From positions 1-38,689 of the forward strand of contig CALJOK010000023.1 in NCBI GenBank assembly GCA_937981555.1: a stretch of 38,689 nucleotides of DNA, in the 5' to 3' direction. The notes below the pieces were generated by a model, which did not search any database, was not told the DNA's origin, and saw only the letters and a list, made by a program, of their open reading frames with translations. Source of the stretch: an uncultured Saprospiraceae bacterium. Lineage in GTDB: Bacteria > Bacteroidota > Bacteroidia > Chitinophagales > Saprospiraceae. This document shows, in pieces, positions 16,060 through 38,689 of the stretch (position 1 is its first letter; every line of letters begins with the position of its first letter). The translations under genes were made by a program, and so were the position numbers.

Positions 16060-16388
16060 AATTAAGATAGTGGGAAAATCCTTCTTTTTGGTATGGTATT
16101 TATTGTTAATGTAATAGTCGTGTTCAAAATAGAATAATGTCACAAAAAGACATTTTAATAAAAACATAAAAGATGTAAAGGCAAGAATTTGCCGCCATCT
16201 TATTTCAATCTTACCAATACTTTCAATTTACCAAAATCTTACACTTCTAGATTAATTACCCAAGCAGAGTTTACATTTTTCCAATTTTCACAAGATGGAG
16301 AAAAGGTGTAGATATCTGTATATGTATATTTTATAGATCAAATTTTTAAAAGTAACTATTGAAAAGTTTTAACAAAAAAAATAGAATA
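16060..16388 (+). other. Leader/intergenic region before the first giant surface protein
   Basis: No gene is seen in this AT-rich stretch. It contains a hairpin at 16170-16201, in which AAGATG pairs with CATCTT around an inner GGCAA/TTTGCC stem. TATATTTT near 16326 resembles a -7 box with one mismatch. The promoter of the downstream three-gene unit should lie here, but no confident -33/-7 pair was found. Confidence 0.4.
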
Positions 16389-19300
16389 ATGAATAAATTC
16401 TTGCCTCCGCAAATTTTTGTAGTTCAAGGAAAACTACTATCCAAGAACTTACGAAATGGGATATTAGTATTACTTACACTTTTATTTTTGCCAATCTTTT
16501 TACAAGCTGAAGGTTCAGTCGATTTTAGAAATAATGCTGGAAAGCGTCTTTTTTATTGGGCAAATGAACAACAGCAAATAAAAGTTTATGCTCAAGCAGG
16601 AGAGTATATTAATTTAGGATCAAGCCACATTGGAGTCAATAGTGGCTTTTTGTTATTGTATAAACCTGATGGAACACTTGCTGGAATTTATCAAGATTTG
16701 GGACTTGGAGCAGGGCTAGGTATCATTAATAATGATGTCGAAGAATTGAATGGTCCAACTGGTGGAGGTACAATGAATGGAAGTGGTTATGTGCCAATTA
16801 CACAAGAAGTGATGGCAGGCGAAGAAGGAATTTGGACAGTTGTTTTAGGGTTTCCATCTACACTTCCAATTACTTCTCTTTACTCATTTACCAATTTGGA
16901 AAATAATGAATCATGGAATCGAGTAACTGCTCAGCCTGATGAATGGGCGGTAGTCGCTTGGGATGCAACAGTATCAACTGGTGCTACGGCAAATAATGGA
17001 GGAACGATGGTGACTGGACGAGTTTTTACGAATCAGTATAAATCAATTATTACTGGAGGTTTAAATACGACTTCTCCTACCTTTTATATGATGTCAAAAG
17101 AAGGGGTTCAATATCAATTAGATTTTGACGGAGTAGATCCATATGGTTTTGATCTTTCAGCAAATTCTACGGGTATTGTTGATCATAAGGGTCAACCAAC
17201 TTATACTTCAAAAGCAACTACAGATTATACTGTTTCAGATGATCCTTCTTCTTGGAATAGTGGTGCTTATTATATTTATGATGCTCAGAGTAATGATAAT
17301 GGTTCATTGATTAATTATAAAATATTTTTTAATACACCTGATCCAACTATGCCTTCACAGGCAATGACAACAAATGTATACACTAACTCAACTTATACGA
17401 CTTGGTTGAATAATGTAGTGAGTTCTGATCCTTTGAGTGTTCAAGGGTTTGATTTTACGGGAGTTGACAATATGGGAAATCCAACTTGTTTCGGAGATAA
17501 TATGCAAACAGGTGTAGGAGGAATTCTTTCTTATAATTCTAATATGACCGGTACTGCAAAATTATCTTTAGATCTAAATGGTGATGGAGATTTTATTGAT
17601 GCAGAGGATAGAATTATTTATCAAGCAGCTGAAACAGGAGCTAATGAAATGATTTGGGATGGATTAGATGGAACTGGTGCAATGATGAATTTGGCAACGG
17701 GTGTAGAAATAGATTATTTACTAGAAATGCGTGCAGGAGAAATGCACATCATGATTCGAGATGTTGAAAATAATTTAGGTGGTATTACTTTTACCAGATT
17801 AAATGGTCAAAATGCTCCTGCTAATGATTTCTTCTATGATCATACAGAAGTTAGTGGAACGACTAGTGGAGGTGCTGCACCTTCTATTTCTTCAACTACT
17901 ATACCTCATACCTATTCTTCCAATTTTGGTAATAATAAAATGTTAGACTATTGGGCTTACCAAGATGTTGCAGGAAATGCTTCAGGTAAGGTGATCGTAA
18001 ATGTAGTTACAGATTGTTCTAAACCAGTTATAGTAGATAGTGATAATGATGGAATAGATGATGATATGGATTTGGATGATGATAATGATGGAATTCCTGA
18101 TTCGAGAGAATATTGTCACCCAACAGGCGGATTTGCTTGTTTTTCAAATGGTGTAGATCCAAGTGCAGATGAGGATGGAGATTTGGTAGCTAACTATTTG
18201 GATGCTGATGATGTTGCAGTAAATAATCCATGTACAGATGCAGATATGAATGGAGTTTGTGATGGCGTGGATGCGATTTTTGATAATGATGCTGATGGTG
18301 TTCCAGATCACCTAGATTTGGATTCTGATAATGATGGAATTCCAGATATGGTAGAAGCAGGTCATGCTCAATTGGATTCAGACATGGATGCTCGGATTGA
18401 TGGAGTTGCTGCTGACTTTGGAGCGAATGGATTATTTAATACCATTTCTTCTGATCCAGATGCGATGACTGCGACGGTTACTTATACAGTTTTAAATACC
18501 AATAATAATAATAGACCAGATCATGATGATTTGGATTCTGACGATGATGGAATTTTTGATGTAATAGAATCTCAACAAGTAGATGGAGACTTTGATGGAA
18601 TTGTAGGAACTGGAATTCCAAAGGTGGATGCAAATGGATTACCTATCGAAGATGGAAATGGAAACCCTGTGATAATTAAATTTTCTCCAAAAGATTTAGA
18701 TCTTGATTTGATTCCAGATTATCGAGATTGGGATCGAGATGGAGATGGTATTGCAGATTACTATGAATGTCCTGATCAAACTAATTGTACGGATTCAGAT
18801 ACCGATGGAAATTTTGATGTGGATGAATTAGATAGTGACGGAGATGGATTGACTGATAATGAAGAATGTCCAACTGGACTTCCTTGTGCAGATACAGATA
18901 ATAATGGAACTGATGATTTTCAGCAATTTAATATAGGATGTCCAACCTTTGATATTCCTGTAGTAACTGTTGCGGATAATGTTATTTGCGAAGGTGAAAT
19001 AATTTCGCTTGCGACAACTGCTGTGGCTGGAACGAATATAGCTTACGAATGGACTTTTACAGATAACAATACAAGTTATTCTTTAGGTCTGACTACTTCA
19101 CCAAATTACTTTATCAATTTTACTAATCCTACACACACCGGAATTTATGCTGTGCAAGTGAAGTCAGGAAGTTGCGCTTCGCAAATTTCAAATGCGGAGA
19201 ATGTAACTGTATATTCTACTTCATCACCAATTGCAACAAATGCAACCTCTCAATCAATACCAGCTTGTGAAGGTGAAAGTATGCAACTGGAAATACCTTA

Positions 19301-21077
19301 TATGATCGATGCAACTTATGAATGGCATGGACCAAATGGATTTACTTCTACACAATATGATCCTGTCATTACGAATCTAACTACCAATAATGCAGGTAGT
19401 TATTATGTTGTGGTGGAAATGAGTGATGGATGTGCAACGGTAATTTCAACCAATACAACTTTGTTTGTTCAAGCAACTCCACCACCAGCTGCAGTAGAAA
19501 GTATGGTAGCAGTTTGTGAAGGAAGTGATTTAGTTTTGACAGCAAATCCATTGGGTATTCCACCTAATGCTACTTTAAATTTTGAATGGTTTTACCAAAC
19601 AGGAACTTCGATTGGTACAACAACTGATTTAGATTTTGTTGTTCCTAATATTGATGCCTCTTCTGCGGGAGAGTATTATGTAGTGATGACTGTTGGGAAT
19701 TGTATAGCAGATGCATCTGCGATGGTCATGGTAGAAATTACAGATACTGATGTTCCAAATGCAGGAAATGATATGACAGTTTGTGGTTTAGGAAATACAA
19801 ATTTGACAGCGATGATGCCTTCTGTTGGAACAGGTCAATGGACTTCGACAACTGGTGCAACGATTAATGATGAGACTAATCCAAGTGCTTCAGTCTCAGA
19901 TTTGATTGCAGGAAATAATATTTTCGTTTGGACACTTTCCAATGACAACTGTGCTAACTATGCTACAGATACTGTCATGATTAATTATACCGATGCGACT
20001 GATGATATATCGAATGCTGGAGTGGACTTGGAAGTATGTAATGATGGTTCAGTTGTTTTAGGAGCAGCTTCACCAGCAACTGCTTTTGGAGTTTGGTCGC
20101 AGCCTAGTACTCAAACGGCTATCGTCATTTCAAATAATACTTCTCCAACTCCAACTGTTTCAGGAATGATTCCTGGTAACACTTATACTTTTACTTGGAC
20201 ACTTTCAGAAGGAACTTGTTTTGATTATGATTCAGATGAAATGACAGTTTCTATTTCTGAATTGCCTGCGATAAATGCACAAGTTGATGTAGAGCAAACT
20301 TATGCTTGCGAAGGCACAGAAGTTAATCTAATTGCGAATCAACCAGCTGTAGGAACTGGAATGTGGATGACGCCGTCTTCCGCAACGATCACCAATCCAA
20401 CTAATGCTTCCACTACAACTAACAATGTTCCATCGGGTGCAAATATGTTTATTTGGTCATTGTCAAATGATGCTTGCGAAAATTATGCAGCTGATACGAT
20501 GGTGGTTTTCCGAGAAGATAATATTGAAGTAACAGATGATAATTTCATTATTAGTTTAAATGAAAGATTAGTTGACGAAGATGTTTTGGTAAATGATGTT
20601 ATTGGTTTTGTCAACGAATATGAAGTGAATATTACTCAAAATCCTACTCAAGGAACAGTTCAAATGATTGATGGAATTTTCACTTATGAACCCAATCATA
20701 ATGCCTTTGGAATAGATGAATTTGAATATGAAGTTTGTAATGTAAACTGTGCCAACGATTGTCAAAAAGCAACGGTCACGATTACGTTAAATGGTTTGAC
20801 TGAGAAAGGAGACTGTTGGATTCCAAATGTTTTGACTCCAAATGGAAATGGTAAAAATGATGCTCTAACGATTCCATGTACACAGAATTTTCCAAATAAT
20901 GAATTGACGGTTTTCAATCGATGGGGAGATAAAGTATTCTCAATTGTAGGTTATCAAAATGATTGGGAAGGAACTTATAATGGAAATGATTTACCAGCAG
21001 GAACCTATTATTATATTTTCAAATTGGATACAGATGATGCAGATCCTGCACAAGGATTTTTTACAATTATTCGATAA
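16389..21077 (+). CDS. Giant T9SS type B cargo protein with TSP3 and Ig/PKD-like repeats
   Basis: A 1562-residue surface protein. The ATG at 16389 replaces an upstream in-frame TTG at 16359. A 28-residue basic extension precedes the signal core (NGILVLLTLLFLPIFLQAEG). An N-terminal domain (about 50-540; GKRLFYWANEQQQIKVYAQAG) of a kind seen in Bacteroidota surface proteins follows. About 300 acidic residues of thrombospondin type 3 calcium repeats come next (nt 18034-18930; DSDNDGIDD, DLDSDNDGIPD). Then three Ig/PKD-like units with CEGE-type starts, three roughly 90-residue units with GxW...GNNIFVWTLSNDNC patterns, and a cadherin-like domain (VLVNDV...GTVQMIDGIFTYEPNHNAFG). The last ~85 residues (IPNVLTPNGNGKNDALTI, VFNRWGDKVF, LPAGTYYYIF) are a type B T9SS/gliding-associated sorting domain. 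It is probably exported by T9SS with the PorP/SprF protein 83 nt downstream. An adhesion or gliding role is inferred. Confidence 0.9.
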   Translation: MNKFLPPQIFVVQGKLLSKNLRNGILVLLTLLFLPIFLQAEGSVDFRNNAGKRLFYWANEQQQIKVYAQAGEYINLGSSHIGVNSGFLLLYKPDGTLAGIYQDLGLGAGLGIINNDVEELNGPTGGGTMNGSGYVPITQEVMAGEEGIWTVVLGFPSTLPITSLYSFTNLENNESWNRVTAQPDEWAVVAWDATVSTGATANNGGTMVTGRVFTNQYKSIITGGLNTTSPTFYMMSKEGVQYQLDFDGVDPYGFDLSANSTGIVDHKGQPTYTSKATTDYTVSDDPSSWNSGAYYIYDAQSNDNGSLINYKIFFNTPDPTMPSQAMTTNVYTNSTYTTWLNNVVSSDPLSVQGFDFTGVDNMGNPTCFGDNMQTGVGGILSYNSNMTGTAKLSLDLNGDGDFIDAEDRIIYQAAETGANEMIWDGLDGTGAMMNLATGVEIDYLLEMRAGEMHIMIRDVENNLGGITFTRLNGQNAPANDFFYDHTEVSGTTSGGAAPSISSTTIPHTYSSNFGNNKMLDYWAYQDVAGNASGKVIVNVVTDCSKPVIVDSDNDGIDDDMDLDDDNDGIPDSREYCHPTGGFACFSNGVDPSADEDGDLVANYLDADDVAVNNPCTDADMNGVCDGVDAIFDNDADGVPDHLDLDSDNDGIPDMVEAGHAQLDSDMDARIDGVAADFGANGLFNTISSDPDAMTATVTYTVLNTNNNNRPDHDDLDSDDDGIFDVIESQQVDGDFDGIVGTGIPKVDANGLPIEDGNGNPVIIKFSPKDLDLDLIPDYRDWDRDGDGIADYYECPDQTNCTDSDTDGNFDVDELDSDGDGLTDNEECPTGLPCADTDNNGTDDFQQFNIGCPTFDIPVVTVADNVICEGEIISLATTAVAGTNIAYEWTFTDNNTSYSLGLTTSPNYFINFTNPTHTGIYAVQVKSGSCASQISNAENVTVYSTSSPIATNATSQSIPACEGESMQLEIPYMIDATYEWHGPNGFTSTQYDPVITNLTTNNAGSYYVVVEMSDGCATVISTNTTLFVQATPPPAAVESMVAVCEGSDLVLTANPLGIPPNATLNFEWFYQTGTSIGTTTDLDFVVPNIDASSAGEYYVVMTVGNCIADASAMVMVEITDTDVPNAGNDMTVCGLGNTNLTAMMPSVGTGQWTSTTGATINDETNPSASVSDLIAGNNIFVWTLSNDNCANYATDTVMINYTDATDDISNAGVDLEVCNDGSVVLGAASPATAFGVWSQPSTQTAIVISNNTSPTPTVSGMIPGNTYTFTWTLSEGTCFDYDSDEMTVSISELPAINAQVDVEQTYACEGTEVNLIANQPAVGTGMWMTPSSATITNPTNASTTTNNVPSGANMFIWSLSNDACENYAADTMVVFREDNIEVTDDNFIISLNERLVDEDVLVNDVIGFVNEYEVNITQNPTQGTVQMIDGIFTYEPNHNAFGIDEFEYEVCNVNCANDCQKATVTITLNGLTEKGDCWIPNVLTPNGNGKNDALTIPCTQNFPNNELTVFNRWGDKVFSIVGYQNDWEGTYNGNDLPAGTYYYIFKLDTDDADPAQGFFTIIR
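18034..18930 (+). repeat. Thrombospondin type 3-like calcium-binding repeat tract
   Basis: The coding sequence holds repeated D-x-D-x-D-G-x-x-D units (DSDNDGIDDDMD, DNDADGVPDHLD, DSDDDGIFDVIE, DRDGDGIADYYE, DSDGDGLTDNEE). Irregular insertions separate them. Such tracts bind many calcium ions and form a rigid stalk. Confidence 0.85.
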
Positions 21078-21160
21078 GGGATTTTTGTTTAAAGAAATGT
21101 AAAAGTATTGTTACAGGAAGTAACTTTTTAGAAAAAAATAATTTTTAAAAAATAATAAAG

Positions 21161-22084
21161 ATGCAAAAATATTTAATTCTTCTAATTATAGTGATGGGAA
21201 CTGCCTGGTCCGTCAATGGTCAAAATGATCCACACTATACTCAATTCATGCATAACAAAATGGCTATCAATCCAGCTTATGCAGGAAGTAAAGAAGTACT
21301 TACGTTCACTTCTCTTTATCGAAATCAATGGTCAGGAGTAACTGGTGCGCCAACAACTTATACGGTAAATGCACATGCTCCTTTTTTCAATAATCGATGT
21401 GGAGCGGGGCTTTCATTTGTAGGTGACCAACATGGTTTTTACAAAACATATAATATCGGATTGAATTATGCGTACCGAATTCCTATGAAAAATGGAGCAA
21501 CATTTAGCATAGGATTGAGTGGTCAAATTGAATATGGTCAAATCGATTTTACTATGATTGACCCTGTGGATATGAATGATGAAGACATTCCTTCGAATGA
21601 GACTTCTCGGATTAATCCAAATTTTGGAGTAGGATTTTACTACAGTCATCCACAATATTATGTGGGACTTTCTGTGCCTAATTTCATGCGATCAACAGTT
21701 TATTCTAATAACCCAAGTCAATCGGTTGATATTAATTCAATGCGAACGTATCAATTGATGGGTGGTTTCATGACTCGGATTAATCACGCAGTTCAATTCA
21801 AACCTGCGATGTTAGTGAGTTACAATCCAGGAGCTCCAATCGAAGTAGATGTCAACGCAAGTTTTTTATTTATGGAAAAAATATGGGTAGGTGCATCTTA
21901 TCGATTAGGTGATTCATTTGATGCGATGTTGCAGTACCAATTTAATCCACAAATTCGAGCAGGAGTAGCGGTTGATTTGACTACATCTAAGTTGTCTCAA
22001 TATAGTCCTGGAAGTTTTGAAGTGATGTTAGAATACGGGTTGAATTTTGAAGGAAAAGGAATGAATCACTTAAGATATTTTTAA
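21161..22084 (+). CDS. PorP/SprF family type IX secretion outer-membrane protein
   Basis: A 307-residue outer-membrane protein of the PorP/SprF family. The signal peptide (MQKYLILLIIVMGTAWSVNGQ) is followed directly by the family signature DPHYTQFMHNKMAINPAYAGS, then LYRNQWSGVTGAP and the HAPFFNNRCGAGLSF region. The remainder alternates like a beta-barrel. In Flavobacterium johnsoniae SprF is needed to secrete the adhesin SprB, and PorP-like proteins are tied to type B cargo. Here it follows a giant type B cargo gene by 83 nt and precedes a PorE-like gene by 99 nt, so it is probably the dedicated export or attachment partner of that cargo. Multiple paralogues per genome are usual, so I give no symbol. 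Confidence 0.95.
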   Translation: MQKYLILLIIVMGTAWSVNGQNDPHYTQFMHNKMAINPAYAGSKEVLTFTSLYRNQWSGVTGAPTTYTVNAHAPFFNNRCGAGLSFVGDQHGFYKTYNIGLNYAYRIPMKNGATFSIGLSGQIEYGQIDFTMIDPVDMNDEDIPSNETSRINPNFGVGFYYSHPQYYVGLSVPNFMRSTVYSNNPSQSVDINSMRTYQLMGGFMTRINHAVQFKPAMLVSYNPGAPIEVDVNASFLFMEKIWVGASYRLGDSFDAMLQYQFNPQIRAGVAVDLTTSKLSQYSPGSFEVMLEYGLNFEGKGMNHLRYF

Positions 22085-22183
22085 TCTCTCAGCCTCCTAA
22101 AAGTGAGTTTTGGAGTGGCAAATGAAAATTGATTTTTTCAAAATAAATAACTGATAACCAGTTGTTTATAAAATAAAAATAAA

Positions 22184-27800: not shown

Positions 27801-29335
27801 ATACGGTTAATGTTATCGTTAATTATACAATTGATACATTGACTAATTGTATCATTTTCGAAGGGATCAATTTTGGTGCTGATATACTTTGTTTAAGATT
27901 GACTAATAGCCTAGGAGATCGAACAGATATCATTCTTAATATAACTGTAACACCACCATGTGGAGATGGTTTTATTAATATGGATTCGGCAATATTAGGT
28001 ATTTCAGATTGTGCTGGAACAACACCATTATGTTTAGAAATTCCTTTTGGTCAGATTGCTGCGTATAATATTACAGATAATGGATTCGCATATGCAAATG
28101 GATTTGCAGGATGTGATTTTGACACTACTTATAGTTACAATTATTTTGCTTTGCCAGCTCAAGGTGCTGCGGGGCCATATAATGTAGATTTATGGATGGT
28201 TAATGATTCAACTTACTCAGGTATGTTTATGACTATTACTGATTTAGTTGATTCGATGAATGTGTGGGATACGACGGGAACATGGACTTTGGATCCTATT
28301 TCATTTAATATTGGAGGAGGGAATATTTCAAGTAATTATGGAAATATTACGATCACACAGAATGGAACAGGTGCATTTGCTCTATTAGAACTGACAGAAA
28401 GTTTGACGCCAAACGGAACTCAAATTTTGATTGGTGATGGACCTCATGAATTGGTTTTTTCAGATACAGCTACACTTTGTCAAGATACTATTCAAGCAAC
28501 TGTTTTCTGTTTGATTACTGATATAGTGTTAGATACCATTATGGATGGAACGATGGATACTTTATGTATTGATACCACAGAATTATTAGGAAATATAATT
28601 AGTATATCAAATGCGTGCCCAACAGAATCTGGAGATATGATAGCATTCGAAATTGTAGATAGTACTTATTGCGTAAATTATGAGGGATTAAATCCTGGTG
28701 AAAATACAGCTTGTATTGTGGTTTGTGACGATTTAGGCTTATGCGATACCACTACAATTATTGTAACTGTTTTGGTTGATACTTTAGCTTTGCCAGATGT
28801 GATAACTGATGCTGATACCACGCTGATGGATCAAATGGTAGTAACTAACTTATTAGCAAATGATACGATCAATGGTATTTTTGATACGATGTATATTTTG
28901 ACAGATCCAACAAATGGAACGGTTGTCATGAATGGAGACGGAACAGCTACTTATACGCCAGACGAAGGGTATTGTGATCCCACTATTCCAGATTCCTATA
29001 ATTATGTGTTGTGTAATACTTCTGGTTGCGACAGTACTTTGGTCACCATTTTAGTGTTGTGTGAAGAAGGAGGTGAGTTATCATTTTATAGCGGATTTTC
29101 TCCAAATGGAGATGGAATTAATGATATCTTTTATATCCAAGGGGTAGAAGGCTACGCTGACAATGTGCTTTGTGTATTTAATCGTTGGGGAAATCGAGTG
29201 TATTATAAAGAAGGTTATGACAATACATTTGATGGAACTTGGGAAAACACAAGGTTAGCCGATGGAACTTATTTTTATGTGTTTGATGATGGAAATGGCA
29301 ATCGATATTCGGGCTATGTCCAAATAGCGAGATAA
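24812..29335 (+). CDS. Giant T9SS type B cargo protein with repeated cysteine modules
   Basis: A 1507-residue surface protein. The ATG at 24812 is used; the ATG at 24851 is an alternative. Either gives an extended N-region before the core AVVLAIVLGVFCLAF. A DUF11-like domain comes first (about 85-230: FTIEILNQGLTTVESFELTNYVPAG is typical), then a SprB-like repeat (SSCNFDNGTATL...YDWSDGGTG). Two interleaved module types fill the centre. Module M (C-x-CLxIPF...NGxxYxxG...GC) occurs four times (nt about 26632, 27190, 27460, 27998), twice with a long insertion. Module N (DTLC...EGxN...CxxxxDDLG) occurs three times (about 26350, 27718, 28535). A cadherin-like domain (TNLLANDT, GTVVMNGDGTATYTPDEGY) and a type B sorting domain (FYSGFSPNGDGINDIFYI, VFNRWGNRVYY, LADGTYFYVF) end the protein. 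It stands alone between terminators. Function beyond a T9SS surface protein is unknown. Confidence 0.9.
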   Translation: MRYNSTFSNKKNPMNVSFSNLTLFKKISQLRAVVLAIVLGVFCLAFTSSDKGNNNTFTFAGFSESEASLNAVIGPNDTVDLALVLTTPNTFACPGSQVNFTIEILNQGLTTVESFELTNYVPAGLTLSAMGNTGWVQTGDKVKKTVTGSLNPNGFTTESIAFDLDSDFSGASLENRVEISAADCDADPNNAAPFELDSTFDDIDNDSIGGDNIIDGSLGDEDDHDFATVMNDAPQLTNVSVTPSSCNFDNGTATLDPTGFTSYDWSDGGTGAARTGLFPGLYTVTFTKVNGCTNTEEIEVTNDCTGCEAIAGTVTMDADTFCIPGDSVLVTFTDDMNSVMPQPQFIRTYFLTQGDSKVIMAFDTIPQFYVYEKGMYRVHVKVFDVLHVPQEEIDSVEIGVTSLIFLNQFLQDGGGYLCGALDTTGIQFEVGTASATVTSTSDEDCGSGNGYALLDPIDYTYEWSDGGTGHERTDLSAGVYSVTVTGCADCIWFVNDITIETSCVLNDTIPFIIETDSTETFCGNPIPDYFSNNTTTTLCAGGTSGGDGTYGSYTVSETGCIIYTSNSLPGSGIDTICVVVNDDMGNADTTIFIPTVICHTVPQIINVACNVTTSTGDLCLDIPFDDIGNFNVTVDGVPVSTGFTGCQGDSSIVYDYSGLFAQGNFGPYELDSWVVEGQDLVLTFQNIQELVDEMNDWDAAANWVLNTTDLTISGGDFDQEYEDLIITHPLTNATISIPPTVLYDFAGTSVEISEGLHTIIYTEVGNNCPTASIQATVSCAPCVPFLPADTVNVVAANCVGTGDFCVNIAVANIFEYQISVDGSAYGGSLMACDFAAVDDGTNLQLNVGLHEIIFTQVTTACSDTILVEVTCPPCSDWLTDVVSLETTTCGSTVETCINVPAGTLSDYEIRDNGSLYAGSIGTCINGIDATIAVDTGFHQITMLNLLSGCIDTMSLTINCVPDTLILDTLIEITAMDTLCLDEILVGDLAMVEILCGDTVNVIVNYTIDTLTNCIIFEGINFGADILCLRLTNSLGDRTDIILNITVTPPCGDGFINMDSAILGISDCAGTTPLCLEIPFGQIAAYNITDNGFAYANGFAGCDFDTTYSYNYFALPAQGAAGPYNVDLWMVNDSTYSGMFMTITDLVDSMNVWDTTGTWTLDPISFNIGGGNISSNYGNITITQNGTGAFALLELTESLTPNGTQILIGDGPHELVFSDTATLCQDTIQATVFCLITDIVLDTIMDGTMDTLCIDTTELLGNIISISNACPTESGDMIAFEIVDSTYCVNYEGLNPGENTACIVVCDDLGLCDTTTIIVTVLVDTLALPDVITDADTTLMDQMVVTNLLANDTINGIFDTMYILTDPTNGTVVMNGDGTATYTPDEGYCDPTIPDSYNYVLCNTSGCDSTLVTILVLCEEGGELSFYSGFSPNGDGINDIFYIQGVEGYADNVLCVFNRWGNRVYYKEGYDNTFDGTWENTRLADGTYFYVFDDGNGNRYSGYVQIAR

Positions 29336-30145: not shown

Positions 30146-33100
30146 ATGGAGAGAATGATCTTTACATTCGATCAAGTGTTAAATCGGAATTGGAATTCAC
30201 TAACCAGAAGCTGTTGGAGCTTACTGTTAGTGGGTTTTTGTTTTGTATTTAACACCAGCCAGATGACTGCACAAGATTGCACGTTATCTGCAAGTTTTGC
30301 CGAAGTCAACAATATTAGTTGCAATGGCGCAATGGACGGGAGTATCTTACTGGAAGCCGAAGTGGCTCAAAGTGGTACTCTCTTTTCTCGTTATATCCAA
30401 TATCAATGGAGTAACGGAGCAGTAACTAAAGGTATTTCAGGATTAGCTCCTGGATTATATGAAGTTACTGTTACTGAATTTGCTTTAACTCCGCCAATAC
30501 CATTATTAGGGAATCCTCCTGATATTTTGGTATGTACGAAGGAGTTAGAGATTACTTTAACTGAACCTTTTGAATTGACTGCAATTGTTGCATCAGTTAA
30601 TAATGTAAGTTGTAACGGCGGAAGCGACGGAGACATTTACATGGATGTACAAGGAGGAACAGCTCCTTATAACTATTTTTGGCTTGGTGCTACTGCTGCG
30701 GATAATACGCAGGACGCAGTAGATGTTCCTGCTGGTGCTTATACTTTTTCAGTAATTGATGCAAATGGTTGCCGAGTCGATATCCTTGATATCGTGGTTG
30801 GTGAGCCAACTGCTGTTACAGTAACTATTGATGGAGTGACTGATGCAGATTGTGCAGGTAACGAAACTGGTTCTGCTACTGCTACAGGAGCAGGCGGAAC
30901 TGGTGCGATTACTTATACATGGAGCGATGGATCTACAGGAGCTACTGCAGAAGATCTTCACGCAGGTGGATATTCAGTAACAGCTACAGATGAAAATGGA
31001 TGTACTGCTCAAGCAAGTACTTTTATTGCTGATCCTAATGCTATTGATGTAAAGATCAATGACCTTACAAATGTATCTTGTAATGGCGGAAGCGATGGAA
31101 GTGTATCAATAGATGTAACTGATAATCCTACAGGAGGAACACCTCCTTATATTTTAAGTTTTGTCTATTATAATGGAACACTTATTAGTACACCAAATAC
31201 TCCACTTGATGGATCTGGTGCATCTTTAAATTCATTGTTATATACAGACATGATTGCAGGACAATATACATTTTTTGTTACTGATGTAAATGGTTGCAGA
31301 GTGTCTACAATTACAACAATTGACGAACCAACATTATTAATCTCTGACATTATTACATCTACTGATGCTTCTTGTAATGGAGATGCAGATGGTACTGCAA
31401 CGGTATATGCTACAGGAGGAACTACTGCTTATACTTATGCTTGGAATGATCCTGCTGCACAAACTACTGCAACTGCAACTGGTTTGGCTTCTGGAACTTA
31501 TACAGTTACTATTACAGATGCTAATGATTGTGAAGTAGAAAATACTGTTACAATTGGAGAGCCTGCGGTACTATCATTAGTTCCAAATTCGCCTCAAAAT
31601 GTATCTTGTAATGGAGGTAGTGATGGTTTTCTTTATATTGCTACAAATGGAGGTACAGGACCATATAATTATAATTGGAGTGGAAGTTCTTTAAGTGCTT
31701 ATTTTCCAAATGATAATGTTGAGGAATTAGTAGATGTTCCAGCTGGTGTTTATAGTGTAGTTGTAACAGATGCTAATGGCTGTACTGCTCAACTTACTAA
31801 TTTGGTTATCACAGAGCCAACACCAGTTACCGTTTCTATAGGAGATGTAATTAATGCTGATTGTGCTGGTGGAGAAACTGGTTCTGCTACTGCTTATGGA
31901 GCAGGAGGAACTGGTGCGATTACTTATGCTTGGTCAAATGGTCAAACGGATGCTGAAAATTGGGGAATACATGCTGGAGGTTATTCAGTAACTGCTACTG
32001 ATGCTAACGGATGTACTGCACAGGCTTCTACTTCTATTTCAGATCCTAATGGACTTTCAATGGAAGTAATTGAAAGTAGCCAACCATGGTGTAATGGAGA
32101 TGACAATGGAAGTGTTACATTAGGTATTTTACAAACAGGTAATTTAGGAGGAACTCCTCCATATACATTAGTTGATGTATATTTTAATGGTACTGAGGTA
32201 AGTGTAAATATTCCATTTACTGGAAATACATTGTATGTGGATGATTTAGATGCTGGTCAATATTCATTTGTTGCACGAGATGATAACAACTGTGAAGTTG
32301 CTGCATATTTTACAATGGATGAGCCTAATCTTTTAATCTCTGACATTATTACATCTACTGATGTTTCATGTATTGGAGATGAAGATGGGACAGCTACTGT
32401 ATATGCTACAGGAGGAACTACTCCTTATACTTATGAATGGAATGATCCTGCTGGACAAACTACTGCAACTGCAACTGGTTTGGCTGCTGGAGCTTACATG
32501 GTTATTGTAACAGATGCTAATGATTGTCAAACGGTTCAGACTATTACAATTTTCGAACCTTCTGCAGTAAATATATTTTTTATTGCAAAAAGTGATGTGT
32601 CATGTAATGGAGGAAGCGATGGAAATATCTTTATGGGAGCAAATGGTGGTACTCCACCATACAATTACGATTGGTCAGGAAATTTCCCTGCTGATAATAC
32701 ACAAGATGCTGTGAATGTTCCTGCTGGAACTTATTCAGTTACTATTACAGATGCTAATGGTTGTACTGATGTGGCTGCTGGTATTATAATTACAGAGCCA
32801 ACTGCTGTTACCGTTTCAATCGGAAATGTAATCAATGCAGATTGTGCTGGAAACGAAACTGGTGAAGCTACTGCTACAGGTATGGGCGGAACTGGTACTA
32901 TCACATATGCATGGAGCAATGGACAGACTGGAGCAAATGCAACTGATCTTCACGCAGGTGGATATTCAGTAACAGCTACAGATGAGAATGGATGTACGGC
33001 TCAGGCTTCTACATTTATTTCTGATCCTAATGCATTAGACATTGTTGTATCAGATTTGACTAATGTATCCTGTAATGGAGGAAATGATGGAAGTGCGACT

Positions 33101-36100
33101 ATAGGGGTTACATTTAGTCCACCAAGTGGAACAGCACCATATGTATTAGCAGGTTATTATAGAAATGGAGTATGGAGTGGATTTTTAAATCTTCCTTTAG
33201 GTCCAGTTACTGGATATACTTATGGGATAGTAGTAAATAATCTTACTGCTGGTCAATATTCATTTTATATTGATGATGTAAATGGTTGTAGAATATCTAT
33301 CAGTACAACTATAGATGAGCCTACATTACTAATCGCTGAAACTATCTCAACTACTGATGCACTTTGCAACGGAAGCTTTGATGGAACAGCTACAGTAAAT
33401 GCTACAGGAGGAACTACTCCTTATACTTATGCATGGTCAAGTGGAGCTATCTCAGCTACAGCTACTGGTCTTGCTGCTGATACTTATACTGTTACTGTTA
33501 CTGATGCAAATGGATGTACTGCGACTTCAACTGCTACTATTGGACAGCCTAACACACTTGGATTGTCAGTAAATGGAGTAGTTAATGTATCATGTAATGA
33601 TGGTTCTGATGGAGCTATTTATTTATCTACAATTGGAGGTACTGGACCATATAATTATAACTGGTCAGGCCCAGGCCCTGGATTTGATCAAGTGGCTGAC
33701 AATGTTCAAGATGCATTAGATCTTCCTGCTGGAACATATTACGTTACAGTTACAGATCATAACGGTTGTACTGCAACTTCTACCAATACAATTACTGAGC
33801 CTTCAGCAGTTACTGTTACTATTGGAAATGTAGTAGATGCTGATTGTGCTGGAAATGAAACTGGTTCTGCAGTAGCAACTGCTTCTGGTGGAACAGGTTC
33901 AATTTATAACTACGCATGGAGTAACGGTCAAAACGGAACTAACCAAGCAACTGCAACTGGATTGCATGCTGGTGGTTATAGTGTGACTGTAACTGATGAG
34001 AATGGTTGTACTGCTCAAGCTTCTACGTTTATTTCTGATCCTAATGGATTAGTAATGACAGCTTTTAACCTTACTGATGTTACTTGTAATGGTGGAGATG
34101 ACGGAACTACTTCTGTAGTAATTAACGGAGGAACTGCACCTTATACATTTAACTTACCGCTTATCGCTACTGGACCTAATAATGCAACTGCAACAGGTTT
34201 GGCTGCTGGTTCATATGTTTTCTCAGCTACTGATGCTAACGGATGTGCAGTAAGTATTGCTGTTCAGGTTGATGAACCTACTCTTTTAATTGCTGAAATT
34301 ATCGCAACTACTGATGCACTTTGCAACGGAAGCGCAGATGGAACGGCTACTGTAAATGCTACAGGTGGAACTACAGGTTACACTTACGCATGGTCTAATG
34401 GACAAACTACTGCAACTGCAACTGGTTTGGCTGCTGGAACTTACGGAGTTACTGTAACTGACGCTAACAATTGTACTGCAGAAACTTCTGCTACAATTGG
34501 TGAGCCTGATGCATTATCATTGAATAATAGTTTGATTATAGATGTAACTTGTAATGGAGGAAATGATGGAACTATCTTCATCCAAACTTCTGGAGGAACT
34601 GGACCATATAACTACCAATGGGGAGGTCCTACAGGTGCATTTGATGCTAATCCTGATAATACAGAAGATGCTATTGGCGTACCTGCTGGAACTTATAATG
34701 TTACAGTAATAGATGCAAATGGATGTACTTTTACTTTATCAGACCTTGTTGTTAATGAGCCAACATTATTAACTGTTTCTATTTCAGATGTAATGAATGC
34801 AAATTGTATAGGTAATGAAGATGGTTCTGCTACAGCAACTGCTGCAGGAGGAACTGCTCCATATACTTATTCATGGTCAAATGGAGATGCTACTGCAACA
34901 GCTTCTGCTCTTCATGCTGGTGGTTATACTGTAATTGCAACTGATGCAAACGGTTGTACTGCAATGGCTTCTATTTCTATTACCGATCCTAATGGATTAA
35001 TTTTCGGAGTTACAGAATCTACAGATGTATCATGTAATGGTGCTTCTGATGGAACTGCTACATTCGGAATTGTTGGAGGAACTGCTCCTTACGCATTGAT
35101 TGGATATATTGGACCAAATGGACAACAAGTTGATTTGGCATCTAATCCTCTTCCTGTTGTTACAGGAACTATTTTCCCTAACATGAGTGCTGGATTATAT
35201 GCATTCTTTGTAACAGATGCTAACGGGTGTCTTACTGCAAACAATGTAATCATTCATGAGCCTACTATCTTATTTGGTGAAATTATCCACCAAGAAGATG
35301 TGACTTGTATAGGTGACAATGATGGAGAAGCTACTGTAAATGCTACAGGAGGAACTACTCCTTACACTTACGAATGGTCAGCTTCTGCTGGAAGCCAAAC
35401 TACTAATACTGCTACTGATTTAGTAGAAGGATTACATTCAGTTACTGTTACAGATGCTAACGGATGTACTGATGTAGTTAATGTAGTTATTGGTCAAACT
35501 GATGATATTCCACCATTATTTACTACTACTATTCCTGGTGACATTACAGTTGAATGTGATGATATTCCTGAACCATTTGTATTGCTTGCTGCTGCTTGGC
35601 ACGTAATGGACAACTGTTCTGATGCTACTGATATCTTAATTGAATATACAGAAACTCAGATTGATATTGTTTGTCCTAATACTTATACTTTGAAAAGACA
35701 ATGGACAATTACTGATGAAGCTGGAAACACAGCTGTTCATATCAGAAATGTATATGTTCAAGATACAACTGCTCCTACATTTACAGTACCTGCTGCTGTA
35801 ACTATCGAATGTGATGAAGATACTTCTCCTGCTAACACAGGTGACGTAACTGATCAAATGGATAACTGTTCTGCTCCTGCAGATATAGTTGTAGCATTTA
35901 CTGATGTAGATGATTTAACAGGATGTGGTGGATATACTGGAACGATTACTCGTACATGGACTGCAACTGATGAGTGTGGTAATGTAGAGACTAAAGTTCA
36001 AGTAATTACTATTGAAGATACTACTGCACCAACTGCAGTATGTAACAGTTTCACTATTGAGTTAAATGCTCAAGGAGAAGCTAGTATTACAATTGCTCAA

Positions 36101-38689
36101 GTTAATGGAGGAAGTACAGATAACTGTGCAGCTGTATCACAATTAACTTATGCATTGGATAAAATGGATTTCACATGTGCTGATTTAGGTGCTAACATTG
36201 TTACACTTTCAGTTACTGATCCTTGTGGAAACACAGGAACTTGTGAAGCTACTATTACAGTAGAAGATAACATTGATCCAATTATTACTTGCCCAGGCGA
36301 TATGGTTATACACCTAGATCCAGGTGCATGTGATCAAGTAATTTCTTACGATGTATTGGCTACTGATAACTGTGATGTAACTGTTGCTCAAATTTCTGGA
36401 TTGTATAGCTCAGGCGATGCTTTCCCAATTGGAGGACCTTACGTTTTAGTTTATGAAGCAACTGATGAAGCTGGAAATACTGCTCAATGTTCATTCTCTG
36501 TAACAGTATTTGAGTATGTTCCTACTTCAACTGATTTAGGATGCAATAGCTTAGTTCATGTTTCATTAGATGAAAACTGTGAAGCATTAGTTACTGCTGA
36601 TATGGTATTAGAAGGTAACAACTTCGGTTGTTATGATGATTATGTAGTTACAATTATTGATGCTAATGGAAATACTGTAATTGGTAATTTATTAACATTA
36701 ACTCATGTAGGAACTACTGTAACGGTATCTATATTAGATCCTGATACAGGTAATATCTGTTGGGGAGAAATCTTAGTAGAGGATAAATTAATCCCTACAT
36801 TTGATTGTCCTGCTGACATAGATGTAACTTGTAATGGAGCAACTGCTCCAGCAATTACAGGAGAACCTACTTTGACTAGTTGTGAAACTAGTGTAACGAT
36901 TGAATTCGAAGATGACTATACTGATTTTGGTTGTGCAGGTGATCCAAGTGATTCTTCTGTAAGAGCTAGAATCATTCGTACTTGGACTGTAACTGATGAA
37001 TCAGGAAATTCTGACCAATGCGTTCAGAACATTAATATCTTGAAACCAGCTTTAGCTGATGTTGTTTTCCCTAATGACTTAGATGAAATCAATGGAGCTG
37101 CTTTAGATTGTGCAGCAGTTGCAGCTAACCCTGCATTGACTGGACCTAACTTTACTGGTTACCCAGAGTATGCAAATCAAGATGTTACTCCTGGTGGATT
37201 ATGTGCATTCTCAATCGGATATGTAGATTCTGAATTGGAAATTTGTGCTGGAGGATCTAGCTACGAGGTGATTAGAACTTGGACTGTTAGAAATATGTGT
37301 GAGCCTTTAGTACCTGGTATTAACCCAGTTCAACACATCCAATCTATCAAAGTATTGGATACGACTGCACCAGATTTAACTTGCCCAGCTCCTACTACAT
37401 TATCTACTTCATCTAACTCTTGTGATGTTGCAGTTACTTTGCCAGCGGCAAATGTAAGTGATGACTGTTCAGGATATGAAGTTTATGTAGAAACTTCTAA
37501 TGGTACAATCTACTCTAACGGTGGATTTATCGGAACTTACGGTTTAGGAGATCACACAGTAACTTATTATGCTACTGATGCATGTGGAAATATTTCTTCA
37601 TGTGATTACACATTTACTGTTGCTGATGTAACTTCACCTATTGCAATTTGCGATGAGCATACAACTGTTGCAATTGGATCTGATGGTACTGCATCTATTA
37701 ATGCAATCACATTTGATGATGGAAGTTTTGATGCTTGTAGTGATGTTACTTTAGACGTTCGAAGAATGGATAACCCGGCTTGTCCTGGTTCTGATTTCAC
37801 ATCATTCGGATCAAGTGTACCATTCTTCTGTTGTGATGTAAACACTATCGTAATGGTAGAGTTAAGAGTAACTGATGCAGCAGGTAATACAAACTCATGT
37901 ATGGTAGAAGTAGAAGTTGAGGACAAAATTAACCCAACTATTATCTGTGCTTCAGATAAAGATGTTGAGTGTTCTGAAACTTACTTAGACTATATCGTAG
38001 TTGGACAACCATTACCACAAGATGCAATTGATGCAAATGGAGAAGCTGTAGCTTCAGATAACTGCCCAGGTGTAACTCTTACAAATAATGTAATCGCTAA
38101 CACAGTTGACTGTGGTAACGGAACAATTACAATTGTATGGACTGCTACTGATGCAGGAGGAAGAACTACTTCTTGTATCCAGAGATACTTTGTTGCTAAC
38201 AATGATCCTTTCTTCATTGTAGATACAGAGCACAGATTAACTCCAATTAATCACAACTTACCTGCAGTAGGACCTCACTCATCTCAGGATGATGTTGAAT
38301 GGCCAGCAGATATTGAATTGACTACATGTGGATTAGGTTTAGAGCCAGCTGACTTAGTTGGAAACTATCCATTAGATGCTTACCCACAAATTTTCGAAGG
38401 AGCTTGTAACAACATCGCAGTTGGACACGAAGATCAAGTACTTGATTTTGGAGTTGCAGATGCATGTTTGAAAGTATTGAGAAAATGGTATGTAATTGAC
38501 TGGTGTCAAGCAGGAGCTAACCAAGATCCAACTCAACTTGGACCTGGTGTATGGCACTATACACAAATCATTAAAGTAATTAACTCTAATGATCCAAACG
38601 TAACAGTAGTAGATTTCCCATCAGTAATTGATAACTATGATGCAAATTGTGGAAACGCATTCGCAGCATTTGAAATCACAGCTGATGAT
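30146..38689 (+). CDS. Giant SprB-repeat and HYR-domain surface adhesin, 3' end outside window
   Basis: The frame is open from the ATG at 30146 to the window edge, 2848 codons without a stop. An N-terminal extension (MERMIFTFDQVLNRNWNSLT) precedes the signal core (CWSLLLVGFCFVF). Twenty-one SprB-type repeats follow (nt about 30280-35506) with the pattern SCNGGSDG...GGTxPYxYxWS...LxAGTYxVTVTDANGCT...EPTxL, two cysteines per repeat. The last 20 form five ABCD super-units. From about 35515 to the edge, roughly ten HYR-like domains follow (TCPGDMVIHL, DNCDVTV, YEATDEAGNTAQC; repeated TTAP/NIDP junctions). One differs (about 36520-36785; LGCNSLVHVSLDENCEA). SprB repeats are named after the mobile gliding adhesin of Flavobacterium. 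A T9SS sorting domain is expected beyond the edge but is not visible. Adhesion or gliding is inferred. Confidence 0.92.
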   Translation, partial: MERMIFTFDQVLNRNWNSLTRSCWSLLLVGFCFVFNTSQMTAQDCTLSASFAEVNNISCNGAMDGSILLEAEVAQSGTLFSRYIQYQWSNGAVTKGISGLAPGLYEVTVTEFALTPPIPLLGNPPDILVCTKELEITLTEPFELTAIVASVNNVSCNGGSDGDIYMDVQGGTAPYNYFWLGATAADNTQDAVDVPAGAYTFSVIDANGCRVDILDIVVGEPTAVTVTIDGVTDADCAGNETGSATATGAGGTGAITYTWSDGSTGATAEDLHAGGYSVTATDENGCTAQASTFIADPNAIDVKINDLTNVSCNGGSDGSVSIDVTDNPTGGTPPYILSFVYYNGTLISTPNTPLDGSGASLNSLLYTDMIAGQYTFFVTDVNGCRVSTITTIDEPTLLISDIITSTDASCNGDADGTATVYATGGTTAYTYAWNDPAAQTTATATGLASGTYTVTITDANDCEVENTVTIGEPAVLSLVPNSPQNVSCNGGSDGFLYIATNGGTGPYNYNWSGSSLSAYFPNDNVEELVDVPAGVYSVVVTDANGCTAQLTNLVITEPTPVTVSIGDVINADCAGGETGSATAYGAGGTGAITYAWSNGQTDAENWGIHAGGYSVTATDANGCTAQASTSISDPNGLSMEVIESSQPWCNGDDNGSVTLGILQTGNLGGTPPYTLVDVYFNGTEVSVNIPFTGNTLYVDDLDAGQYSFVARDDNNCEVAAYFTMDEPNLLISDIITSTDVSCIGDEDGTATVYATGGTTPYTYEWNDPAGQTTATATGLAAGAYMVIVTDANDCQTVQTITIFEPSAVNIFFIAKSDVSCNGGSDGNIFMGANGGTPPYNYDWSGNFPADNTQDAVNVPAGTYSVTITDANGCTDVAAGIIITEPTAVTVSIGNVINADCAGNETGEATATGMGGTGTITYAWSNGQTGANATDLHAGGYSVTATDENGCTAQASTFISDPNALDIVVSDLTNVSCNGGNDGSATIGVTFSPPSGTAPYVLAGYYRNGVWSGFLNLPLGPVTGYTYGIVVNNLTAGQYSFYIDDVNGCRISISTTIDEPTLLIAETISTTDALCNGSFDGTATVNATGGTTPYTYAWSSGAISATATGLAADTYTVTVTDANGCTATSTATIGQPNTLGLSVNGVVNVSCNDGSDGAIYLSTIGGTGPYNYNWSGPGPGFDQVADNVQDALDLPAGTYYVTVTDHNGCTATSTNTITEPSAVTVTIGNVVDADCAGNETGSAVATASGGTGSIYNYAWSNGQNGTNQATATGLHAGGYSVTVTDENGCTAQASTFISDPNGLVMTAFNLTDVTCNGGDDGTTSVVINGGTAPYTFNLPLIATGPNNATATGLAAGSYVFSATDANGCAVSIAVQVDEPTLLIAEIIATTDALCNGSADGTATVNATGGTTGYTYAWSNGQTTATATGLAAGTYGVTVTDANNCTAETSATIGEPDALSLNNSLIIDVTCNGGNDGTIFIQTSGGTGPYNYQWGGPTGAFDANPDNTEDAIGVPAGTYNVTVIDANGCTFTLSDLVVNEPTLLTVSISDVMNANCIGNEDGSATATAAGGTAPYTYSWSNGDATATASALHAGGYTVIATDANGCTAMASISITDPNGLIFGVTESTDVSCNGASDGTATFGIVGGTAPYALIGYIGPNGQQVDLASNPLPVVTGTIFPNMSAGLYAFFVTDANGCLTANNVIIHEPTILFGEIIHQEDVTCIGDNDGEATVNATGGTTPYTYEWSASAGSQTTNTATDLVEGLHSVTVTDANGCTDVVNVVIGQTDDIPPLFTTTIPGDITVECDDIPEPFVLLAAAWHVMDNCSDATDILIEYTETQIDIVCPNTYTLKRQWTITDEAGNTAVHIRNVYVQDTTAPTFTVPAAVTIECDEDTSPANTGDVTDQMDNCSAPADIVVAFTDVDDLTGCGGYTGTITRTWTATDECGNVETKVQVITIEDTTAPTAVCNSFTIELNAQGEASITIAQVNGGSTDNCAAVSQLTYALDKMDFTCADLGANIVTLSVTDPCGNTGTCEATITVEDNIDPIITCPGDMVIHLDPGACDQVISYDVLATDNCDVTVAQISGLYSSGDAFPIGGPYVLVYEATDEAGNTAQCSFSVTVFEYVPTSTDLGCNSLVHVSLDENCEALVTADMVLEGNNFGCYDDYVVTIIDANGNTVIGNLLTLTHVGTTVTVSILDPDTGNICWGEILVEDKLIPTFDCPADIDVTCNGATAPAITGEPTLTSCETSVTIEFEDDYTDFGCAGDPSDSSVRARIIRTWTVTDESGNSDQCVQNINILKPALADVVFPNDLDEINGAALDCAAVAANPALTGPNFTGYPEYANQDVTPGGLCAFSIGYVDSELEICAGGSSYEVIRTWTVRNMCEPLVPGINPVQHIQSIKVLDTTAPDLTCPAPTTLSTSSNSCDVAVTLPAANVSDDCSGYEVYVETSNGTIYSNGGFIGTYGLGDHTVTYYATDACGNISSCDYTFTVADVTSPIAICDEHTTVAIGSDGTASINAITFDDGSFDACSDVTLDVRRMDNPACPGSDFTSFGSSVPFFCCDVNTIVMVELRVTDAAGNTNSCMVEVEVEDKINPTIICASDKDVECSETYLDYIVVGQPLPQDAIDANGEAVASDNCPGVTLTNNVIANTVDCGNGTITIVWTATDAGGRTTSCIQRYFVANNDPFFIVDTEHRLTPINHNLPAVGPHSSQDDVEWPADIELTTCGLGLEPADLVGNYPLDAYPQIFEGACNNIAVGHEDQVLDFGVADACLKVLRKWYVIDWCQAGANQDPTQLGPGVWHYTQIIKVINSNDPNVTVVDFPSVIDNYDANCGNAFAAFEITADD
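30584..31579 (+). repeat. SprB super-repeat 1 (units A1-D1)
   Basis: Conserved first cysteines lie at codons 30611 (A), 30851 (B), 31079 (C) and 31373 (D). A carries NTQDAVDVPAG, B carries DADCAGNETGSA and LHAGGYSVTATDENGCTAQ, C a variable loop and DVNGCRVS with DEPTLLI, D ITSTDASCNGDADGTATV. Confidence 0.85.
31580..32575 (+). repeat. SprB super-repeat 2 (units A2-D2)
   Basis: First cysteine codons are at 31607, 31862, 32090 and 32369. The period from super-repeat 1 is 996 nt for A and D. The D1 and D2 units share a 31-bp identical stretch at 31337-31367 and 32333-32363. Confidence 0.85.
32576..33565 (+). repeat. SprB super-repeat 3 (units A3-D3)
   Basis: First cysteine codons are at 32603, 32843, 33071 and 33365. 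The A unit repeats NTQDAVNVPAGTYSVT, B repeats NADCAGNETGEA, and C carries the longest variable loop. Confidence 0.85.
33566..34522 (+). repeat. SprB super-repeat 4 (units A4-D4)
   Basis: First cysteine codons are at 33593, 33845, 34085 and 34322. The C unit lacks the long loop seen in the others, which shortens this super-repeat to 957 nt. Confidence 0.85.
34523..35506 (+). repeat. SprB super-repeat 5 (units A5-D5)
   Basis: First cysteine codons are at 34550, 34805, 35033 and 35306. This copy is the most divergent: B has NANCIGNEDGSA and D has QEDVTCIGDNDGEATV. It passes directly into the first HYR-like domain. Confidence 0.82.

Follow-up and report, generated by a model that had tools for sequence, protein, structure and literature searches.

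SprB repeats (PF13573) are found in numerous large Bacteroidota proteins, and the phrase "SprB repeat" occurred in two papers only of the literature searched. The family includes SprB of Flavobacterium johnsoniae, described as a type B T9SS substrate anchored by SprF (PMC12635249). A comparable organization is found in the muscle proteins titin (A-band super-repeats) and nebulin (seven-domain blocks), which are built from other domain families, have grown by blocks, and contain domains more alike at the same position of successive blocks than between neighbours. In titin, conserved surface clusters occupy particular block positions (PMC10665226 and PMC1553488), and the filament to which the super-repeat belongs is known. 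Among solved structures, the closest fold is that of GhpA, the grappling-hook protein of Aureispira (PDB 9flp, 9flu and others), a heptamer according to PMC13319060.

The window, i.e. the whole stretch of 38,689 nucleotides analysed here, comes from a Saprospiraceae bacterium and encodes an array that shares its repeat family with SprB of F. johnsoniae and its block growth with titin and nebulin, is without a known partner lattice, and, unlike the other SprB arrays surveyed, has an A-B-C-D order found only here and in one congeneric genome (G003). It is best explained, and we think probably so, as the rod of a surface protein in which an A-B-C-D block was duplicated, the C repeats are candidate sites, and the domains are tied by disulfides.

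The repeat protein, its surroundings and its fold

The features of the locus are collected in Table 1. The protein was assigned to the SprB repeat family at 510 bits (PF13573 cut-off, 28; E 4e-157), 18 stretches having E-values no higher than 0.001, and a 21st repeat (R0) preceding A1, missed in the earlier note, scored as class D.

Table 1. Features of the repeat gene and its surroundings in the window (repeat boundaries set ten residues ahead of each first cysteine)
Feature	Position	Strand	Remarks
CHU_C protein	16359..21077		
PorP_SprF gene	21161..22084		
ORF of repeat protein	30146..38689	+	2848 codons; stop-less to contig end; C-terminus missing
R0, degenerate SprB repeat upstream of cycle	~30290..30580	+	nearest class D; boundaries approximate
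Super-unit 1	30581..31576	+	A1 30581-30820, B1 30821-31048, C1 31049-31342, D1 31343-31576
Super-unit 2	31577..32572	+	A2 31577-31831, B2 31832-32059, C2 32060-32338, D2 32339-32572
Super-unit 3	32573..33562	+	A3 32573-32812, B3 32813-33040, C3 33041-33334, D3 33335-33562
Super-unit 4	33563..34519	+	A4 33563-33814, B4 33815-34054, C4 34055-34291 (short loop), D4 34292-34519
Super-unit 5	34520..35515	+	A5 34520-34774, B5 34775-35002, C5 35003-35275, D5 35276-35515 (D5 end approximate)
Cysteine-rich region with HYR matches, downstream of SprB array	35516..38689	+	cut by contig end

The region after the SprB array is 60% identical to a paralogue on contig C1, which continues into a cohesin-like match and then a type A T9SS sorting domain (below its own Pfam cut-off in one profile search), whereas F. 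johnsoniae SprB is described as a type B substrate. The sorting signal of the repeat protein lies beyond the contig end, outside the window; residues 1183-1207, inside the SprB array, matched an NCBIfam sorting domain at 23.7 bits (cut-off, 23), which was taken as spurious. A PorP_SprF gene, the neighbour sought for an SprB-type gliding adhesin, is present in the window, but it adjoins the gene for the CHU_C protein and lies about 8 kb from the repeat gene, so that their pairing is doubtful. The region would encode the rod portion of a very large surface protein, which would leave via the T9SS and stand off the cell. A near match to blocks 1-3 was absent from the plasmid collection.

Structure models gave mean pLDDT values of 89 and 94; the model of two super-units had a pTM of 0.46, and its geometry is therefore not fixed. 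All six top PDB matches of one super-unit were GhpA fragments; for the single repeats and the super-unit, identity to GhpA was 17-23% and no TM-score exceeded 0.52. A GhpA profile match at E 5e-45 was obtained, but composition bias contributed heavily to it (up to 73 bits), and no match to GhpA at E 1, and hence no clear chain-wide homology, was detected by phmmer with the full window protein; against PDB, this search returned two weak decoration-protein matches and nothing else. Structure alignment A1 comprised the 50 top-ranking stretches out of 111 candidates and six window/G003 rows, and structure alignment A3 comprised 33 of the 34 best stretches and eight window/G003 blocks, L187 being dropped from the latter because its longer stretch contains a stop.

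Period four and the descent of the blocks

The A-B-C-D pattern is real and old. Twenty SprB repeats had been proposed to cycle through four classes five times, and this was confirmed by identity lags, a repeat tree and DNA self-shift. The first-cysteine spacings given for class A (996, 996, 990 and 957 nt; codons at 30611, 31607, 32603, 33593 and 34550) and class D (996, 996, 957 and 984 nt; codons at 31373, 32369, 33365, 34322 and 35306) are exact. Mean repeat identity at lags 4, 8, 12 and 16 was 0.588, 0.575, 0.564 and 0.508, respectively, and 0.31-0.40 at other lags; identity was 0.571 within classes (40 pairs) versus 0.365 between classes (150 pairs), and the top value in 20000 label shuffles (0.499) stayed below the within-class value. 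Period four had a z of 11.6, reached by none of 1000 shuffles, which places the array among super-repeats. In the tree of 21 repeats, a single branch set each class apart from the rest, with support of 99/98 for B, 96/93 for C and 81/82 for D but weak support for A (79/68 or 68/88), and grouping by super-unit instead of by class was rejected for each of the five super-units (AU p 3.9e-5 to 3.8e-59). When the DNA of blocks 1-3 was compared with itself at shifts of 60-1499, 996 ranked top (46.6% identity), followed by 981 (38.8%); for the whole array at shifts of 60-2099, 1992 was first and 996 second (44.3% and 39.7%). The class signatures exist, with more variants than the earlier note stated: B2 has ADCAGGETG, LHAGGYSVTATDENGC is exact in B1 and B3 only, and DEPTLLI of class C appears as DEPNLLI in C2 and HEPTILF in C5.

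The same cassette occurs three times in G003, a congeneric MAG whose contig is identical to that of locus L132 (JAQXDE010000034.1, Saprospiraceae MAG), in a protein with an N-terminus and following domains unlike those of the window protein. Among the four other genomes of the genus in the sample, it was found in G003 only, the other three (G001, G002 and G004) being drafts of 370-510 contigs each, with G004 66% complete. Block dS was 0.70-1.49 within the window and G003 arrays and 0.91-1.75 between arrays. Window block 2 and G003 block 2 (W2 and G2) were sisters (support 98/97), as were, less firmly, W3 and G1 (86/90). Block relations derived from A and D conflict with those from C, AG2 being closest to AW1 and DG1 to DW1, so that the blocks may be mosaics; the cassette may also have been transferred between the two species.

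Growth by duplication of blocks of about 330 residues, as had been suggested, is supported by the identity lags, the repeat tree and the block comparison with G003. In the ancestor, a run of four already diverged repeats would have been duplicated as one block before the split between the window species and its congener, and copy number would later have changed in whole blocks to five and three, respectively, as expected if unequal recombination joins in-phase blocks.

Among the SprB arrays surveyed, periods of 4, 2, 3 and 5 were significant in 5, 4, 2 and 1 arrays, i.e. in 12 of 114 arrays of at least 8 repeats (chance expectation at p<0.005, about 0.6), and were not significant at p<0.005 in 102; as loci were picked by likeness to a window super-unit or by SprB matches, this is not a population frequency. 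A second sample of 16 arrays contained three with significant periods, of 7, 7 and 3. A-B-C-D as a general SprB order was rejected, since class profiles run on 2215 repeats of the 114 arrays found it in the window and G003 only, and class D was the best call for 1630 of these repeats. Loci L139 and L140, identical in coordinates and scores, were both retained in the period and class-profile counts, and L140 was excluded from the cysteine counts. An SprB repeat match was present in 36 of 148 sampled Bacteroidota genomes.

Cysteine losses in neighbouring repeats

Where the first cysteine of repeat i was lost, the second cysteine of repeat i+1 was lost in 17 of 41 cases, versus 34 of 2088 otherwise, gapped cells at the cysteine columns being excluded; none of 2000 within-array shuffles attained a co-loss of 17. 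Other pairings of first-cysteine loss gave 1/58 for the same repeat and 3/55 for the previous repeat. The idea of pairing came from a list of odd neighbours in a cruder, fixed-position cysteine count, which gave no association for the same repeat or between the second cysteine of i and the first of i+1. Because the hypothesis arose from the first sample, the second sample served as an independent test, and co-loss between i and i+1 was found there in 8/10 versus 0/257 (co-losses from three loci). Offset -2 was also raised (6/9), which may be due to the period-3 array L271. Effects at first and last repeats of the second sample were weak (3/33 vs 12/302 and 3/29 vs 13/272, respectively), a spare cysteine was not enriched ahead of first repeats (p 0.37), and no partner is evident for the final SprB repeat, since the domain that follows has Ala where later domains of that region have Cys (by eye). 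A disulfide inside one repeat was rejected on the co-loss pattern of both samples.

These losses indicate, at the level of sequence, that a disulfide staples each SprB repeat to the next, first cysteine of i to second cysteine of i+1. The rod domains would thus be joined serially by disulfides, and such a chain would resist pulling, although this mechanical effect is a guess. The proposed covalent wiring is testable across the SprB family and would bear on load-carrying by such surface proteins.

Class C and the meaning of the block

Class C differs from A, B and D in combining divergence within the array with matching between species: identity is at most 51% between window copies, and 84% for CW2-CG2 and 67% for CW3-CG1. 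In 1000 column bootstraps, G2 was matched best by W2 in 100% for C, 0.1% for A, 33% for B and 55% for D, and G1 by W3 in 100% for C, 53% for A, 9% for B and 0.7% for D. The eight window and G003 copies scored 1.5e-23 to 3.3e-42 with the class-C profile, the best score outside them in 298 family genomes being 5.5e-15. Loops are longer in A and C (C4 is without the long loop), and D is the generic SprB type. Retention of block-specific features across two species suggests that C has its own job, as read from the substitution pattern of these eight copies; the earlier proposal of different jobs for B and C is strengthened to that extent for C, and B is set apart by its mean dN, lowest within the window, within G003 and between species. 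A, B and D would then chiefly form the rod, and the C copies, each with its own interspecies-conserved loop, would be candidate binding or partner-contact sites, one per block.

Some SprB arrays are ordered composites, and C is singled out as the domain type to test for binding. A broader and more doubtful reading is that SprB arrays are neighbour-bonded Ig-like chains in which C supplies distinct, individually conserved binding sites at regular intervals, one at every fourth repeat, as a bacterial counterpart of the titin super-repeat.

The order could instead be a neutral trace of block duplication, with no class-specific job and a C loop that is merely tolerant. This is less probable but to be taken seriously: A-B-C-D order is an expected, automatic by-product of block duplication and alone is not functional evidence, array periods differ (2, 3, 4, 5 and 7), multi-domain duplication is the common growth mode of domain repeats (PMC1553488), and in the pair W3-G1 alone the dN of B is not the lowest, D and C being equally constrained. 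Free drift would, however, not be expected to yield C loops that are species-matched yet divergent within the array unless the copies recently co-descended. The dS of CW2-CG2 (0.72) is below the values for A, B and D in the W2/G2 blocks (1.14-1.38), so that recent shared descent or exchange may account for part of the C match.

The earlier note had also offered the four-repeat block as a structural unit, such as one helical turn of a filament; an axial bundle repeat would be a variant of this. Equal lengths of blocks 1 and 2 (996 nt; block 3, 990), copy number in whole blocks in both species, and the heptameric GhpA filament of similar fold (PMC13319060), which demonstrates that rods of this kind can assemble, would fit, but we consider it improbable, since other arrays have different periods or none, block 4 falls 13 residues short of block 1, the two-block geometry is not confident, and the proposed disulfides would have a period of one. 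A duplicated rod with C as candidate sites is preferred. Recent tandem amplification or an assembly artefact, which might be suggested by the stop of both the window and G003 contigs within the gene past the SprB array and by the existence of another array, L160, that is freshly amplified (lag-3 identity 95%), is very hard to credit, as the window blocks are 51-65% identical to one another with dS of 0.70-1.40 and are related to the blocks of another species.

The four-class cycle of the repeat protein

The ORF of the repeat protein (see table) begins with a sequence that, judged by eye, resembles a signal peptide. A degenerate SprB repeat, R0, lies upstream of the first class A repeat; 20 more SprB repeats follow, and behind them comes a cysteine-rich region that gives HYR matches. 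The genome carrying the window contig comprises 117 contigs.

Features of the window on and upstream of the repeat ORF
Feature	Position	Remark
Type B T9SS protein (CHU_C), PorP/SprF gene and OmpA-family gene in a row	16359-24475	upstream of repeat ORF
Second type B (CHU_C) T9SS protein	24812-29335	upstream of repeat ORF
ORF of repeat protein	30146-38689	open through contig end, no stop

The earlier note had described five rounds of four repeat classes (A, B, C and D), and the cysteine-codon spacings that it gave were confirmed. Identity between repeats peaked at lags of 4, 8, 12 and 16, the A/B/C/D labels outscored 20000/20000 label shuffles, and the expected period of about 996 nt was recovered as the optimum of a DNA self-shift over blocks 1-3 (996). 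In a tree of 21 repeats, each of the four classes lay on one side of a branch, with moderate support for A and D, and B and D were grouped (support 80/76). The super-unit (one A-B-C-D block) as a clade was rejected in this tree for each of the five super-units. The class signatures were present, with more variants than the note had stated. Long loops belonged to classes A and C and short ones to B and D, the cysteine-to-cysteine distance per repeat in the window being 53-58 for A, 50-54 for B, 53-72 for C and 50-53 for D.

Block size, age and spread of the cassette

The same A-B-C-D cassette was found three times in a congeneric genome (G003), on a contig of 4169 bases (JAQXDE010000034.1), in a protein whose N-terminus and following domains differ from those of the window protein; the first A of this array was diverged when scored with class profiles. 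Blocks of the two arrays were sisters in two cases, namely block 2 of both (98/97) and window block 3 with G003 block 1 (86/90), and dS was 0.70-1.49 for blocks of the same array, against 0.91-1.75 for blocks of different arrays. When 298 family genomes were searched with one super-unit, 16 matched at 1e-42, led by the window's own genome (8.6e-216) and G003 (1.1e-111), with 4.5e-52 as the best of the other 14. A class C profile built from the eight C repeats of the window and G003 scored its own eight at 1.5e-23 to 3.3e-42 and reached 5.5e-15 at best elsewhere in these genomes. Class profiles applied to 2215 repeats restricted the ABCD order to the window and G003 and marked D as the generic SprB type.

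A period of four was not special among SprB arrays. Among 114 arrays with at least eight repeats, a period reached significance in 12 (p<0.005 after correction over periods), namely 4 in five arrays, 2 in four, 3 in two and 5 in one; in the other three arrays of period four the order was not ABCD. A second sample (20 regions, 16 arrays) gave three significant periods, 7, 7 and 3. The block size copied therefore differs between proteins. Duplication of several domains at once is the common growth mode of domain repeats according to Bjorklund and colleagues (PMC1553488). No super-repeat in SprB arrays was found in the accessible parts of the open-access literature on SprB repeats and structure, higher-order repeats of adhesins, titin, and domain duplication (including PMC7698502 and PMC9870892).

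The period of seven occurred at loci L274 and L275, from two genomes of one class. A further locus (L160:4040-21334) held 62 SprB repeats of period three with 95% identity at lag 3, and is a recent amplification of three repeats.

Probable cysteine pairing of neighbouring repeats

Both cysteines were present in all 21 SprB repeats of the window (30278-35515), and in G003 the second cysteine was missing in the first repeat only. Co-loss was counted in 2406 repeats from 158 runs. Where the first cysteine of a repeat was lost, the second cysteine of the next repeat was lost in 17/41 cases, and otherwise in 34/2088 (odds ratio 43); the control pairings gave 1/58 within one repeat and 3/55 with the previous repeat. 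The 17 cases were spread over 13 arrays and 10 loci, and 2000 within-array shuffles reached a maximum of 10. The second cysteine was missing in 32/154 first repeats vs 66/2235, and the first cysteine in 14/133 last repeats vs 44/2142, as expected if the partners of these end cysteines are absent. First repeats in this sample showed no enrichment of a spare cysteine on their upstream side.

In a second sample (340 repeats, 33 runs) co-loss was 8/10 vs 0/257, all cases coming from three loci. The offset of -2 was raised as well (6/9), which may be explained by a period-three array in this sample, and the end effects were weak (3/33 vs 12/302 for first repeats and 3/29 vs 13/272 for last repeats).

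Co-loss between neighbours argues for inter-domain disulfides from the first cysteine of a repeat to the second cysteine of the following one, which are likely in SprB arrays. In terms of the Ig-like fold, such a bond would connect the loop behind the first strand of one domain to the loop ahead of the last strand of its successor, and these two loops face each other in a tandem rod. Since this pairing would have a period of one, super-units would not be marked off by it. Inter-domain disulfides in SprB arrays were not found in the accessible parts of the open-access literature on disulfides of SprB and tandem Ig-like domains (including PMC12635249 and PMC10619420).

Class C, fold and surface context

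The evidence that the classes may have different jobs was best for class C, in its matching between species. The C copies of the window array were at most 51% identical to each other, whereas the C repeats of block 2 in the window and G003 were 84% identical (dN 0.09, dS 0.72), and that of window block 3 was 67% identical to that of G003 block 1; no comparable match of these block pairs was found for A, B or D. Class B had the lowest mean dN (0.25 within the window, 0.29 within G003 and 0.27 between them), except in the pair of window block 3 and G003 block 1, in which C and D lay below B. We read class C, from the sequences of two species, as the probable place of a block-specific function in loops varying between blocks, although recent shared history may account for some of this effect, given the lower dS of the pair of block 2 C repeats. 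The block relations given by A and D conflicted with those given by C, which makes recombination within blocks likely.

AlphaFold2 models had a mean pLDDT of 94 and a pTM of 0.74 for four repeats, and of 89 and 0.46 for eight, the domains being confident in both and their arrangement loose in the latter. The best PDB matches of the eight-repeat model were GhpA (first and second) and DSCAM (third), and for one super-unit GhpA took each of the six top places, TM-scores on the query being 0.48-0.52. GhpA, described in PMC13319060 as a protein of 5898 residues forming a heptamer, resembles the window protein in fold, and was not found by single-sequence search with the latter.

A paralogue on contig C1 (L085:2-6889) resembles the C-terminal half of the window protein, with 60% identity over part of the HYR region and 92% DNA identity across the final 190 bases of the window, and has a cohesin-like match and a type A sorting domain at its end. 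From this sorting domain and the upstream T9SS genes, we think of the repeat protein as a putative T9SS-exported surface rod, which may or may not be involved in gliding. A long tandem array with units about 474 bases apart, in a 5518-codon ORF at about 1-14000 of contig C21 of the window's own genome, was also matched by the window protein, through the part that contains HYR.
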